Assembly (NCBI GenBank): GCA_030685215.1
Contig: JAUXQB010000261.1
Coordinates: 1-33,357 of the forward strand
DNA: 33,357 nucleotides
Direction: 5' to 3'
Source of the DNA: Actinomycetota bacterium
Lineage (GTDB): Bacteria; Actinomycetota; Acidimicrobiia; Acidimicrobiales; Ilumatobacteraceae
The notes below the pieces were generated by a model. That model saw nothing but the letters and a program-made list of their open reading frames with translations, had not been told where the DNA came from and ran no database searches. Positions 2,326-18,275 of the stretch are shown piece after piece; within the stretch, counting starts at the first letter, position 1; the number at the start of each line of letters is the position of its first letter. Position numbers and translations under genes: made by a program.

Positions 2326-2342
<17 letters not shown>
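1932..2342 (+). CDS. Nucleoside 2-deoxyribosyltransferase family protein
   Basis: 136 residues. The start [10 protein letters not shown] and the motif [13 protein letters not shown] are typical of the nucleoside 2-deoxyribosyltransferase fold, where the Glu of the Trp-Glu-Leu-Gly segment is the nucleophile that holds the deoxyribosyl group. The preceding Asp-Val-Val-Val-Ala-Asn-Leu-Asn-Gly segment fits the family's beta strand before the active-site loop. Related enzymes exchange or hydrolyse N-glycosidic bonds of (deoxy)nucleosides in salvage; the exact substrate is not readable. ATG at 1932 overlaps the CoA-transferase stop (ATGA), so it is the third gene of a coupled operon whose members have no obvious shared pathway. 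Its 3' end overlaps the convergent msrA by 17 bases. Confidence 0.85.
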
Positions 2343-2979
<637 letters not shown>

Positions 2980-3070
2980 GGGTCCCAGGCTACGAGCGGA
3001 CTGCGAAACGTGCCAGAGCGAGCTGGTGAACGATCTCGAAACTGGGCCCCCGGCAGTAACGTCAGGGACC

Positions 3071-3586
3071 GTGTTGAATCCCGCTGTCTCCATCCGCAGG
3101 TTCGCGGCGCACGACGTCGAGCCGGTGCTGGCCCTCAACAACGCCAACGTGCCCGAGCTCAACGAGCTCGACGCGCCGGAGGTCGCCCGCCTCGCCGAGC
3201 TCGCCGAGTCGGCGTTGGTGGCCGAGGTCGACGGCTCGTTCGCAGGCTTCTGCTGGGTCATCGGGCCGGGTCAGCCGTACGGCAGCCTCAACTACGGCTG
3301 GTTCAGCCGGCAGTACACCGAGTTCCTCTACCTCGACCGCATCGCGGTGCACCCCGACTTCCGCCGCTACGGCATCGGCCGCGGGTTCTACGCACATCTC
3401 GTCGAGCAGTTCACCGGTGCCTGGCCGGTGTTGCTGTGCGAGGTCAACGTGCGCCCGCGCAACGATGCGTCGCTCCACTTCCATCACTCGATCGGCTTCC
3501 GCGAAGTCGGTCAGCAGGACACCGACGGCGGTGCCAAGACCGTCAGCCTCCTCGAGCTCCCACTCGTCCGCCGCTCGCTCGGCTGA
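3071..3586 (+). CDS. GNAT family N-acetyltransferase
   Basis: About 171 residues. It begins with the GNAT N-terminal strand-helix ([10 protein letters not shown]) and carries motif A, [14 protein letters not shown], whose Arg-x-x-Gly-x-Gly loop binds the acetyl-CoA pyrophosphate. Later segments (Leu-Leu-Cys-Glu-Val-Asn-Val-Arg-Pro-x-Asn and [11 protein letters not shown]) match motif B and the last strands. GTG 3071 is my start; TTG at 3074 lies at a better distance from AGGGA (3064-3068), and an ATG at 2921 would add 50 residues unlike the family. The acceptor is unknown: small amines, amino acids or protein N-termini are all possible. The 3' side runs into a nested inverted-repeat region. 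Confidence 0.88.
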
Positions 3587-15316: not shown

Positions 15317-16249
15317 CTACTTGCCGCCCTCTTGGTCGCGCAGGAAACGCTCGACCTCGGCCATCAGGTCGTCGCTGTTCACCTCGTGCTCGGGGCCGAG
15401 CTCGCCACCCACCGAGTCGTCGTCGTCGTCATCGTCGTCGTCGTCGACCTCGTCGTAGTCGAAGTCGTCGTCGAGCTCGCCGCTGTCGGCCAGCGACTCG
15501 AGCCGCGACACGTAGCCGACGAGGTCGTTGTCGTCGCTGACGAACGCGGTGACGCGCGTGTCGTAGTCGTGCGACTCGGCCTGCAGGCGGGCGGTGGGCG
15601 CCGGTGTGCCGATGATCTCGCACGCACGTTCCACCAGAGCCAGCGAGGCCTTGGGCGACGGCACCTGCGACGCGTACGCGGGGACCGCCGCCCACAGCGA
15701 CGCGGAGGAGAGGTCGGCGCGGGTGCACGCGTCGTGCACGACGCCGACGATGCCGGTGGGACCTTCGTAGCGGCTGCGCTGCAGGTCGAAGCGGTCGATG
15801 ACATCCTGCTCGGTGGCGGTGCCGATGAGCTGCACGGGCCTGCTGTGCGGTACATCGGCGAGCAGCGCGCCGAGCGTGAGCACCATCGACACGTCGAACC
15901 GGCGAGCGATGCCGATGAGCTGGTCGGTGAACAGTCGCCACCGCAGCGCGGGCTCCGGGCCGAGAAGGAGGATGACATCGCCTCCCGGCGTGCTCGCGCT
16001 CCACACGCCGACCGTGGGCCACACGATCGTGCGGCGTTGCTCCGGAGTGAGGCGCACGTGCGGGCGCACGGTGGCGAAGTCGGTGAACTCCTCCGGATCG
16101 ATCTCGGCGAGCGGCTGTGCGTGCCACGCCTCCACGAGGTGCCGCACGCTGTTGCTGGCCGCGTCGGCCGCGTCGTTCCAGCCGGTGAAGGCCGCGACCA
16201 TCAGAGGGCGCTGCAACGTGGGTTGCGACAGCCAGCGCACGTGCTCCAT
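15317..16249 (-). CDS. PAC2 family protein with acidic tail
   Basis: 310 residues. The N-terminal about 250 residues match the PAC2 (proteasome-assembly-chaperone-2-like) family of Actinobacteria: Pro-Leu-Met-Val-Ala-Ala-Phe-Thr-Gly-Trp-Asn-Asp-Ala-Ala-Asp-Ala-Ala (15-31), Leu-Thr-Leu-Gly-Ala-Leu-Leu-Ala-Asp-Val-Pro-His-Ser-Arg-Pro (124-138) and Tyr-Val-Ser-Arg-Leu-Glu (246-251). The biochemical role of the bacterial members is not settled. Residues 260-280 are acidic with ten consecutive Asp (269-278), encoded by a GAC/GAT-rich run near 15413-15442, and the tail ends in a short helix and Glu-Gly-Gly-Lys. ATG at 16249 is chosen because family similarity begins immediately; the frame stays open to 16675 but that part looks non-coding. 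It is divergent from the AAC(3)-like gene. Confidence 0.85.
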   Translation of the reverse strand: MEHVRWLSQPTLQRPLMVAAFTGWNDAADAASNSVRHLVEAWHAQPLAEIDPEEFTDFATVRPHVRLTPEQRRTIVWPTVGVWSASTPGGDVILLLGPEPALRWRLFTDQLIGIARRFDVSMVLTLGALLADVPHSRPVQLIGTATEQDVIDRFDLQRSRYEGPTGIVGVVHDACTRADLSSASLWAAVPAYASQVPSPKASLALVERACEIIGTPAPTARLQAESHDYDTRVTAFVSDDNDLVGYVSRLESLADSGELDDDFDYDEVDDDDDDDDDDSVGGELGPEHEVNSDDLMAEVERFLRDQEGGK

Positions 16250-16331
16250 GGGTTTCCACGCTATCGCCGCTCGCGCATCGCGGCCCGCCAACTCGTTGGT
16301 GCGGCCACCGATCGCATGTGAGACTGCAGCG

Positions 16332-17168
16332 ATGTCAGCGACCGTCGTGCACTCGGTCATCGATCGCACGCCCGAGCCCGTCACACACGCAGCCATCTGC
16401 ACGGCGCTCGCCGCGGCGGGCGTCAGCTCTGGTGCGTCGGTCATCGTGCACTCGTCGCTGTCGCGCATCGGTTGGGTCGTGGGTGGTGCGCACACCGTCG
16501 TCGGCGCCGTCCTCGACGCGGTCGGTCCCGACGGCACCGTCACCATGCCCTCGATGTCGAGCGACCTCAGCGATCCGGCGCGTTGGGAAGCCCCACCGGT
16601 GCCCGAGTCGTGGTGGCAGACCATCCGCGAGCAGACGCCGGCCTTCGACGTGCACCTCACGCCCACCACGCACATGGGCGCGGTGGTGGAGTGCTTCCGC
16701 CACGTGCCGGGAGCGGTGCGCAGCGCTCATCCCGCCGACTCGTTCGTCTCGGTCGGTCCGCTCGCTCCGCACGTCGCGCAGCCGCATCCGCTCAGCCCCG
16801 CGTTCGGCGACGGGTCGCCGCTGTCGCGTCTGTACGAGCTCGACGCGCGCATCGTGCTGCTCGGCGTCGGGCACTCGAACAACACCTCGCTGCACCTGGC
16901 CGAGTGGCGCGCCGCGCAGGCCTCGATGCCGGCCACCATCATCACCTACGGGGCGCCGGTGATGCGCGATGGTGCGCGCCAGTGGGTGGAGTTCGAGGAT
17001 CTCGACTACGACGCCGACGACTTCGCTGCGCTCGGCGACGCGTTCGCGGCCGATGGCGGCGAGGTGCAAATCGTGCCGCTCGGGGTGGGTGACGTGACCA
17101 CCTGCTCGATGCGCGAGATCGTCGACTTCGGCGTCAGCTGGTTGTGCGCGAATCGTCCGCAGCGCTGA
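16332..17168 (+). CDS. AAC(3)-family (aminoglycoside 3-N-acetyltransferase-like) protein
   Basis: 278 residues, normal for the AAC(3)/YokD family, which uses acetyl-CoA. Val-His-Ser-Ser-Leu-Ser-Arg-Ile-Gly-Trp-Val-Val-Gly-Gly (39-52) and Val-Gly-Pro-Asp-Gly-Thr-Val-Thr-Met-Pro (64-73) are the opening family motifs. Leu-Leu-Gly-Val-Gly-His181-Ser-Asn-Asn-Thr185-Ser-Leu-His188-Leu-Ala-Glu191 contains the conserved active-site His and Glu. Environmental members often act on unknown amines, so the name does not prove drug resistance. ATG 16332 fits; the frame extends upstream without family likeness. The 82-bp gap to the divergent PAC2 gene contains the dyad CCAAC-TC-GTTGG (16288-16299). The stop is inside a small hairpin shared with the convergent selenoprotein gene. 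Confidence 0.87.
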   Translation: MSATVVHSVIDRTPEPVTHAAICTALAAAGVSSGASVIVHSSLSRIGWVVGGAHTVVGAVLDAVGPDGTVTMPSMSSDLSDPARWEAPPVPESWWQTIREQTPAFDVHLTPTTHMGAVVECFRHVPGAVRSAHPADSFVSVGPLAPHVAQPHPLSPAFGDGSPLSRLYELDARIVLLGVGHSNNTSLHLAEWRAAQASMPATIITYGAPVMRDGARQWVEFEDLDYDADDFAALGDAFAADGGEVQIVPLGVGDVTTCSMREIVDFGVSWLCANRPQR

Positions 17169-17178
17169 CCGGCGTCAG
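17165..17178. terminator. Small CTGAC-CGGC-GTCAG hairpin over both stop codons
   Basis: A 5-bp dyad with a 4-base loop spans the AAC(3)-like TGA (17166-17168) and the complement of the opposite TGA (17175-17177). It is weak on its own, but it repeats the arrangement seen at 5206-5232 and 30631-30647. Confidence 0.4.
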
Positions 17179-18275
17179 AGCTGCGGCAGCACCGTGTAGG
17201 CCTCGCCGCCGCCGGAGGCGATGACGTCGTCGAGCCAGTTGCCCTCGTACACGTCGTTGGGGCCTTGCATCAGGTCGTTCTCCGTGGCGTCGGCAGGGGT
17301 GGTGACGAGGGTCCAGGCCTGGCGCTTGTACGTCCAGTTCGCCGGGTACAGGCGATGCGCTTCCCGCCACCACGGCACCGCCGCGTCGGGGCCCACCGTG
17401 CGGCGCAGGTGCTCGCCGAGCTCGAAGCACGCGGCGGCGCGAGCTTCGTCGGTGCCACGCGGCTGCGAGCGGGCGATGACCTCCTCGGCGGGCAGCACGA
17501 ACCGCGACTCGGCGACGTGGTGTGCCCAGTCGACGATGGCGGCGCGGTAGTCGTCGGCCACGTCGGGGATCTTCTTCACCTCGGTGAGCATGCTCGTGAT
17601 GCGCTCCGGGAGGCCCTCGGGGATGTCCATGTCGCGGAGCGGGCTGCGTTCGATGGACGCGCCCTCGGCGGGACGCACGATGGTGCCGGTCTCGTCGATC
17701 CACACCGCCATCGGGATGTTGATGAACCCGAACAGCTCGTCGGTGAGGTGCTGCGTGTCGATCAGGTTCACCTGCGCGAGCGCGGGATCAGCGGGCAGCG
17801 ACGCGTCGATCCACTTGGTGGTGTGTGCCGGTTCCACGTCGAGTGCGACGGTGACGACCGTGAACCCGAGCGGTGCGAGTTCGGTGTGGAGCGCCTGCCA
17901 CCCGGGCAGGCTGGTGCGACAGCCTCAATAGCTCGCCCAGGCGACGAGCAGCACCTTTCGGCCGTGGAGCGACGACAGCCGGAACGGGCTGCCGCCGGTG
18001 GTGCGCAGTTCGGGGTCGGCGGCTGCGGCGGTGGTGAGTGCGCGTCCGCCGAGCGTGGCGGGGCCGATCGCCCACACCCCGTGCTCGGGGTCGTGGATCA
18101 CGGGCATGCCCAGGCGTTGTGCGGCGATCTCGATGTCGATGGTGCCGTCGGCGCGGAGGCTGCCCGGTGCGGGGACGCACACGTCGCCCTGGCACAGGCC
18201 CTGGGGCTTCGCGTGCCAGCCGGTGTGGTCGGCGAACGCGTCGGTGTCGACGGCGTCGAGCGTCTGGAGGATCAT
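17175..18275 (-). CDS. Predicted selenoprotein: thioredoxin-fold (AhpC/ResA-like) oxidoreductase with in-frame TGA
   Basis: 366 residues if the TGA at 17927-17925 (codon 117) is read as selenocysteine. Upstream is open from ATG 18275, downstream from codon 118 to the stop at 17175, all in one frame. Residues 96-116 form the strand and turn before a thioredoxin active site (Ser-Leu-His-Gly-Arg-Lys-Val-Leu-Leu-Val-Ala-Trp-Ala-Ser-Tyr), then Sec117-Gly-Cys119-Arg, then Leu-Pro-Gly-Trp-Gln-Ala-Leu-His and Gly-Phe-Thr-Val-Val-Thr-Val-Ala-Leu-Asp, the normal continuation of a redoxin; Ile-Asn-Ile-Pro holds the cis-Pro. The N-terminal about 90 residues include Cys28-x4-Cys33. The C-terminal about 130 residues are helical, TPR-like. 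A hairpin follows the TGA. The gene lies 12 bases after the SCO6745-type gene. Two split genes or a nonsense mutation are the alternatives. Confidence 0.85.
17893..17927 (-). promoter_or_regulatory. Candidate bacterial SECIS: TGA codon plus downstream hairpin
   Basis: On the minus strand, TGA (17927-17925) is followed by 13 bases and then GCCTGCC-CGGGT-GGCAGGC (17911-17893), a perfect 7-bp GC stem with a 5-base loop containing GGGU. Bacterial SECIS elements lie inside the reading frame directly after the UGA, with a short stem and a G near the start of the apical loop; the UGA-to-loop distance here is 20 bases, within the usual range. SelB would bind it. Confidence 0.7.

Follow-up and report, generated by a model that had tools for sequence, protein, structure and literature searches.

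Introduction

CxxC is the active-site motif of the ResA/TlpA family of thiol-disulfide oxidoreductases, and ResA and TlpA are exported. Other members of the redoxin superfamily, the selenoprotein peroxiredoxins (TxxU) and thioredoxins (UxxC), hold selenocysteine (Sec) in the active-site motif, according to the accessible part of a later review (PMC13188914). Redoxin selenoproteins described as 'UGC-containing' have been in print since 2008. The available portion of the Global Ocean Sampling survey lists 'Prx-like (UGC-containing)' under pfam00578 with the motif UGC and row figures of 46, 15 and 855, and gives it as more abundant in non-marine samples (PMC2398784). A 'UGC-containing Prx-like protein' and a 'UGC-containing TlpA disulfide reductase family protein' appear in the accessible parts of later reviews (PMC9312934 and PMC13188914, respectively). 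As described in these partial texts, the published proteins combine a pfam00578 or cd02966 domain with U-G-C, and N- or C-terminal additions go unmentioned there (PMC2398784, PMC9312934, PMC13188914). Neither UGC nor TlpA was found in the available main text of PMC5029168. The literature searched, with most subscription journals outside its coverage, yielded no functional study of the UGC/WAxxUGC family.

Here, we analyze a gene in a stretch of 33,357 nucleotides from an uncultured actinobacterium; the whole stretch is referred to as the window. The gene appears to be broken by an in-frame TGA. An earlier reading made from the letters alone (the sequence-only reading) had proposed that the two frames form one selenoprotein gene, and had implied that its domain layout was new. 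We find that the two frames most likely make up one intact gene, whose product is a redox protein that contains selenium. Gene callers that take the TGA as a stop would split the gene, and the active site would be lost.

Results

Translation reproduced both the phase of the TGA and the flanking residues that the sequence-only reading had given. With the TGA read through, the minus-strand frame encodes a single 366-residue protein, in which the only internal TGA is codon 117 and the terminal stop is also TGA (Table 1). The residues around it are Trp-Ala-Ser-Tyr-Sec117-Gly-Cys119 (WASY-TGA-GCRTSLPGWQ). The joined protein matches the NCBIfam equivalog NF041054.1, 'ResA-like WAxxUGC motif-containing protein', well above the cut-off of 300 bits and over model positions 1-350 of 354, and it has the WAxxUGC motif with the in-frame TGA (WASY-TGA-GC). 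By this profile match it is a further member of a known selenoprotein family, and the implied novelty is not supported because the family is already catalogued, under NF041054 and as the 'UGC-containing' selenoproteins. We infer that the two are the same family from their descriptions, not from sequences; the published proteins and the window protein (PF00578 plus UGC) agree in domain and motif. Sec is preceded by Tyr in the window protein and in its nearest relatives, and by Trp in most distant ones; no other difference from NF041054 was found.

Table 1 Features of the predicted selenoprotein gene in the window
Feature	Position	Strand	Evidence
Predicted selenoprotein gene, 366 codons plus terminal TGA	17175..18275	-	NCBIfam NF041054 WAxxUGC_long, 478.3 bits, E 1.6e-143, protein residues 1-362
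N-terminal domain, residues 1-78	18042..18275	-	No Pfam or convincing PDB match
Cys28-x4-Cys33 pair	18177..18194	-	Invariant in 50/50 alignment rows; also in 17 Cys forms
AhpC-TSA/Redoxin domain, ResA/TlpA fold, residues 84-199	17679..18026	-	Pfam AhpC-TSA (PF00578) match; structure model
In-frame TGA, putative Sec117	17925..17927	-	78/78 scorable genome_contigs loci have TGA (80 fetched); 17 further homologues have Cys
Cys119, putative resolving residue of Sec-Gly-Cys motif	17919..17921	-	Invariant in 50/50 alignment rows; role inferred
SECIS-like hairpin GCCTGCC-CGGGT-GGCAGGC, 7 bp	17893..17911	-	Starts 16 bases after T of TGA; pair conservation and covariation
Helical TPR-like C-terminal region, residues 263-325	17301..17489	-	Helices in model; TPR_2 in 15/50 relatives

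A structure model built from a 50-row alignment had a mean pLDDT of 93.7. Residues ~79-255 of the model align with ResA, TlpA and DsbE structures at Z scores of about 14-18; the match to 3gl3 reached Z 18.2 (2.1 A, 139 residues) and that of the redoxin part to ResA 1st9 reached Z 17.2 (rmsd 2.5 A, 136 residues). The TGA lies at the catalytic position of this ResA/TlpA-type fold, as the sequence-only reading had placed it. Although the protein has the fold of the ResA, TlpA and DsbE (CcmG) thiol-disulfide oxidoreductases, it has U-G-C where these have CxxC, and the family sequences read show U-G-C or C-G-C and no CxxC active site; it is filed under NF041054 and not under ResA. It also differs from them in an extra N-terminal Cys-pair domain, a helical C-terminus and the lack of a signal peptide apparent by eye. 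Compared with the selenoprotein peroxiredoxins and thioredoxins, both the motif and the domain layout are different. The proposed TPR-like C-terminal domain was borne out in part: TPR_2 matches occur in 15 of the 50 aligned relatives (E≤0.01), but no TPR profile matches the window protein.

To follow the Sec site across genomes, we used those listed matches that span the motif and score 115 bits or more, leaving out rows below 80 bits and C-terminal pieces (G031, G238, G212:C353 and the second piece of G164). Among the matches listed in 395 genomes of the class, 98 genomes have an internal TGA and 17 do not. The position of the TGA was read in fetched loci only, and the other TGA genomes have one internal TGA by program count. 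The NF041054 cut-off is passed in only 40 of the 395 genomes (38 of the 98 TGA and 2 of the 17 Cys genomes, among the matches listed), the remainder being shorter or more distant relatives below it. All 17 Cys homologues read WCGC, with TGC or TGT at the site. Thus, homologues with Cys at position 117, which the sequence-only reading had named as support for Sec, do exist, and the unrelated residues that would have spoken against it did not turn up, given that every relative with a readable codon has TGA or Cys.

The exchange of Sec for Cys tracks the Sec machinery. Among the matches listed, selB is over the cut-off in 93 of the 98 TGA genomes versus 1 of the 17 Cys genomes, and tRNA-Sec at E≤1e-10, a threshold set in the present analysis, is found in 86 of 98 versus 0 of 17. 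Fisher values for this association should not be taken literally because the genomes are related and not phylogenetically independent. On the TGA side, the exceptions are five of the 98 listed genomes without selB over the cut-off, three of which have tRNA-Sec; on the Cys side, the exception is genome G162, which has selB over the cut-off. Both states occur within a single genus (g121): genomes G084 and G170 have TGA, selB and tRNA-Sec, and G111 and G203 have TGC and neither selB nor tRNA-Sec, although the latter two are 88% and 74% complete, respectively, and the missing selB could be a gap. A pair of loci from this genus (L113 and L114) is 77% identical. Such a natural Sec/Cys pair would lend itself to studies of why selenium is retained or lost.

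A few loci stand apart from this pattern. The Cys form of G162 (L145) comes with selB but no strong tRNA-Sec match, perhaps through recent loss or through contamination (5%). Locus L120 (G221) has TGA-His-Cys in place of TGA-Gly-Cys. In three loci (L160, L161 and L162) the contigs end 3' of the Sec site, only a few codons away in two cases, and the residue is unreadable. Two loci in records titled Bifidobacterium breve (L055 and L067) carry this acidimicrobial-type gene and are probably mislabelled metagenome bins.

Of the four Sec genes that the sequence-only reading had named for a search of the same genome, selA, selB and selD were found, all over their cut-offs. selA (C151:8541-9674, 386.5 bits) adjoins selB (C151:9704-10777, 284.6 bits, covering profile positions 2-345 of 581), and selD lies on C333 (308.9 bits). 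The fourth, selC (tRNA-Sec), did not turn up in the draft of 340 contigs, which is 92% complete. Rfam RF01852 gave nine matches in it, the best at 38.8 bits against a gathering score of 47; the eight of these nine that were fetched are ordinary tRNAs. Nor was a tRNA-Sec found near selA-selB (16 kb searched) or near selD (12 kb searched), and a search of the window's genome with the tRNA-Sec of G051, from the same genus, returned 17 short matches, none of them longer than 32 bases. The sample includes three other species of the genus: G051 and G386 have tRNA-Sec and selB and no NF041054 match over the cut-off, and G019 has no match over the cut-off for any of the three. No evident gene is shared between the regions flanking tRNA-Sec in G051 and in G386, which hence give no pointer to a contig gap in the window's genome. 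Among the matches listed, 12 of the 98 TGA genomes, the window's included, miss tRNA-Sec at E≤1e-10, which makes a gap in the draft the likely, if unproven, reason for its absence here.

The missing tRNA-Sec, together with the existence of Cys homologues, would also fit a TGA that is read as cysteine by a Cys-charged, UGA-reading tRNA, of which the selC*-type tRNAs are an example. The presence of selA, selB and selD, and the strong tRNA-Sec matches in the 86 TGA genomes listed above, make this very unlikely. A pseudogene or sequencing error, in which a nonsense change, natural or introduced by the assembly, had replaced a Cys codon, would likewise be compatible with a draft genome in which tRNA-Sec is not seen. 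However, a genome_contigs scan with patterns outside the motif found 82 relatives, of which 80 loci were kept, and TGA is at the Sec site in all 78 that could be scored, across many assemblies, which speaks strongly against such an error. These relatives extend to records titled Chloroflexi, Deltaproteobacteria and Binataceae. Selection also continues 3' of the TGA, where dN (0.10-0.16) is below dS (0.45-0.79) in seven of the seven comparisons made. A nonsense change or error is therefore extremely unlikely, and the view of the sequence-only reading that the position of the TGA is not random is upheld by the same two results. One of the two unscorable loci (L088) is a C-terminal fragment. The other (L068) is without the motif region: at 432-1340 the stretch with the Sec codon is missing and the frame is open on both sides, either because the stretch was truly deleted or because of misassembly.

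Both open frames exist, and the TGA could in principle be a real stop between two separate proteins, an upstream product of 116 residues and a downstream product of 220 residues (GTG at 17837). Yet the motif is kept on both sides of the TGA, including the GCR that immediately follows it and precedes the downstream start, the Cys homologues are single chains and NF041054 spans both halves, so that we give separate products hardly any probability. General reassignment of TGA, to Trp for example, or its leaky readthrough found no supporting point and is just as improbable, given that TGA ends 22 of the 25 likely window genes (chosen by eye from the ORF list, selenoprotein gene included), which makes a general code change very unlikely, and that the exchange partner is Cys and not Trp.

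Decoding of the TGA as Sec would call on a SECIS element, and the hairpin directly 3' of the TGA looks like a putative bacterial one. Folding energy relative to synonymous recoding did not differ significantly between Sec and Cys forms (mean z -1.13 versus -0.63, P 0.086), and in the next folding window the Cys forms fold better (z 0.27 for Sec, -0.90 for Cys; P 0.0005); in this set, L015 was left out by the motif pattern and identical 120-base stretches were removed. As the folding energy was not significant, pair conservation was used as the SECIS test instead. The four inner pairs (19-31, 20-30, 21-29 and 22-28) are standard in all of 113 distinct Sec sequences, compared with 17, 11, 14 and 14 of the 17 Cys forms, respectively. 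Pair 18-32 in the Sec forms is C-G in 103, T-A in five (two synonymous changes) and T-G in three; the other two sequences have mismatches, C-A and G-G.

Covariation was tested on 30 sequences chosen from 79, in which 92.9% of the hairpin cells are paired. The covariation score was 0.149, where shuffles averaged 0.092, and six cells were changed on both sides, where shuffles averaged 1.4; neither value was reached in 500 shuffles. Three pairs had a two-sided change, a number reached by 14 of 500 shuffles. A control slid by +3 also had six two-sided cells, equal to the hairpin itself, yet only 35.7% of its cells were paired. In one locus (L073), a G-C pair is exchanged for C-G. In 13 of the 30 sequences, the outermost positions do not pair.

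The N-terminal domain carries the Cys28-x4-Cys33 pair that the sequence-only reading had pointed out. Searches with the domain gave no Pfam match and, among PDB sequences, a best E of 0.56. Modelled alone (residues 1-81), it had a mean pLDDT of 87.8; Foldseek returned nothing at E≤0.001 and VIA-align reached a Z of 2.3 at most among the 200 chains compared, a missing match that does not show a new fold. A search for the domain in 31 family genomes gave 27 matches, of which 15 coincide with family (redoxin) matches and the other 12 are in genomes outside the family search. Where this could be checked (15 of the 27 matches), the domain was seen only in fusion with this redoxin.

Discussion

TGA 17927-17925 very probably encodes Sec, and the product is probably a 366-residue WAxxUGC thiol/selenol oxidoreductase of the ResA/TlpA-like redoxin type. 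The sequence support consists of one selected frame through the TGA, a Sec/Cys exchange that tracks selB, a conserved hairpin, and selA, selB and selD in the genome. In the proposed mechanism, SelB and Sec-tRNA would translate the TGA as Sec, with the SECIS hairpin directing the insertion. Sec117, which stands where the thioredoxin fold has its attacking Cys, would then attack a disulfide or peroxide, and Cys119, the likely resolving residue by its invariance, would close a selenenylsulfide with it. A reductant, perhaps the Cys28/Cys33 pair and perhaps an external thiol, would reset Sec117-Cys119. The role is most likely that of a selenium-dependent thiol-disulfide oxidoreductase or peroxidase, as predicted from fold and motif.

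Given that no signal peptide is apparent, the window protein is probably cytosolic, unlike ResA or TlpA. Within one cytosolic chain, the Cys28/Cys33 domain could pass electrons to Sec117-Cys119 as a self-contained selenium relay, with no separate thioredoxin or reductase needed; we regard this as a tentative and rather unlikely proposal. The N-terminal Cys-pair domain is the less explained part of the protein and the one most worth following.

The gene neighbourhood looks like a matter of shared ancestry without a functional hint, given that the matches to window neighbours are mostly in closer relatives. By tblastn in the 80 loci, with flanks of 3 kb or less that make all counts lower bounds, NUDIX was found in at least 31, PAC2 and the AAC(3)-like gene each in at least 41, and SCO6745 and GNAT each in at least 37; the nearby cupin gene had a match in 0 of 80 loci within these flanks. 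Elsewhere in the window, a 311-residue ORF (2326-3261, minus strand) has an MsrA domain at residues 140-294, and the part that precedes it may be due only to the first start codon having been taken. The gene at 15798-17168 (plus strand), convergent with the selenoprotein gene, encodes the AAC(3)-like acetyltransferase; its score of 172 bits does not reach the NCBIfam cut-off of 270.
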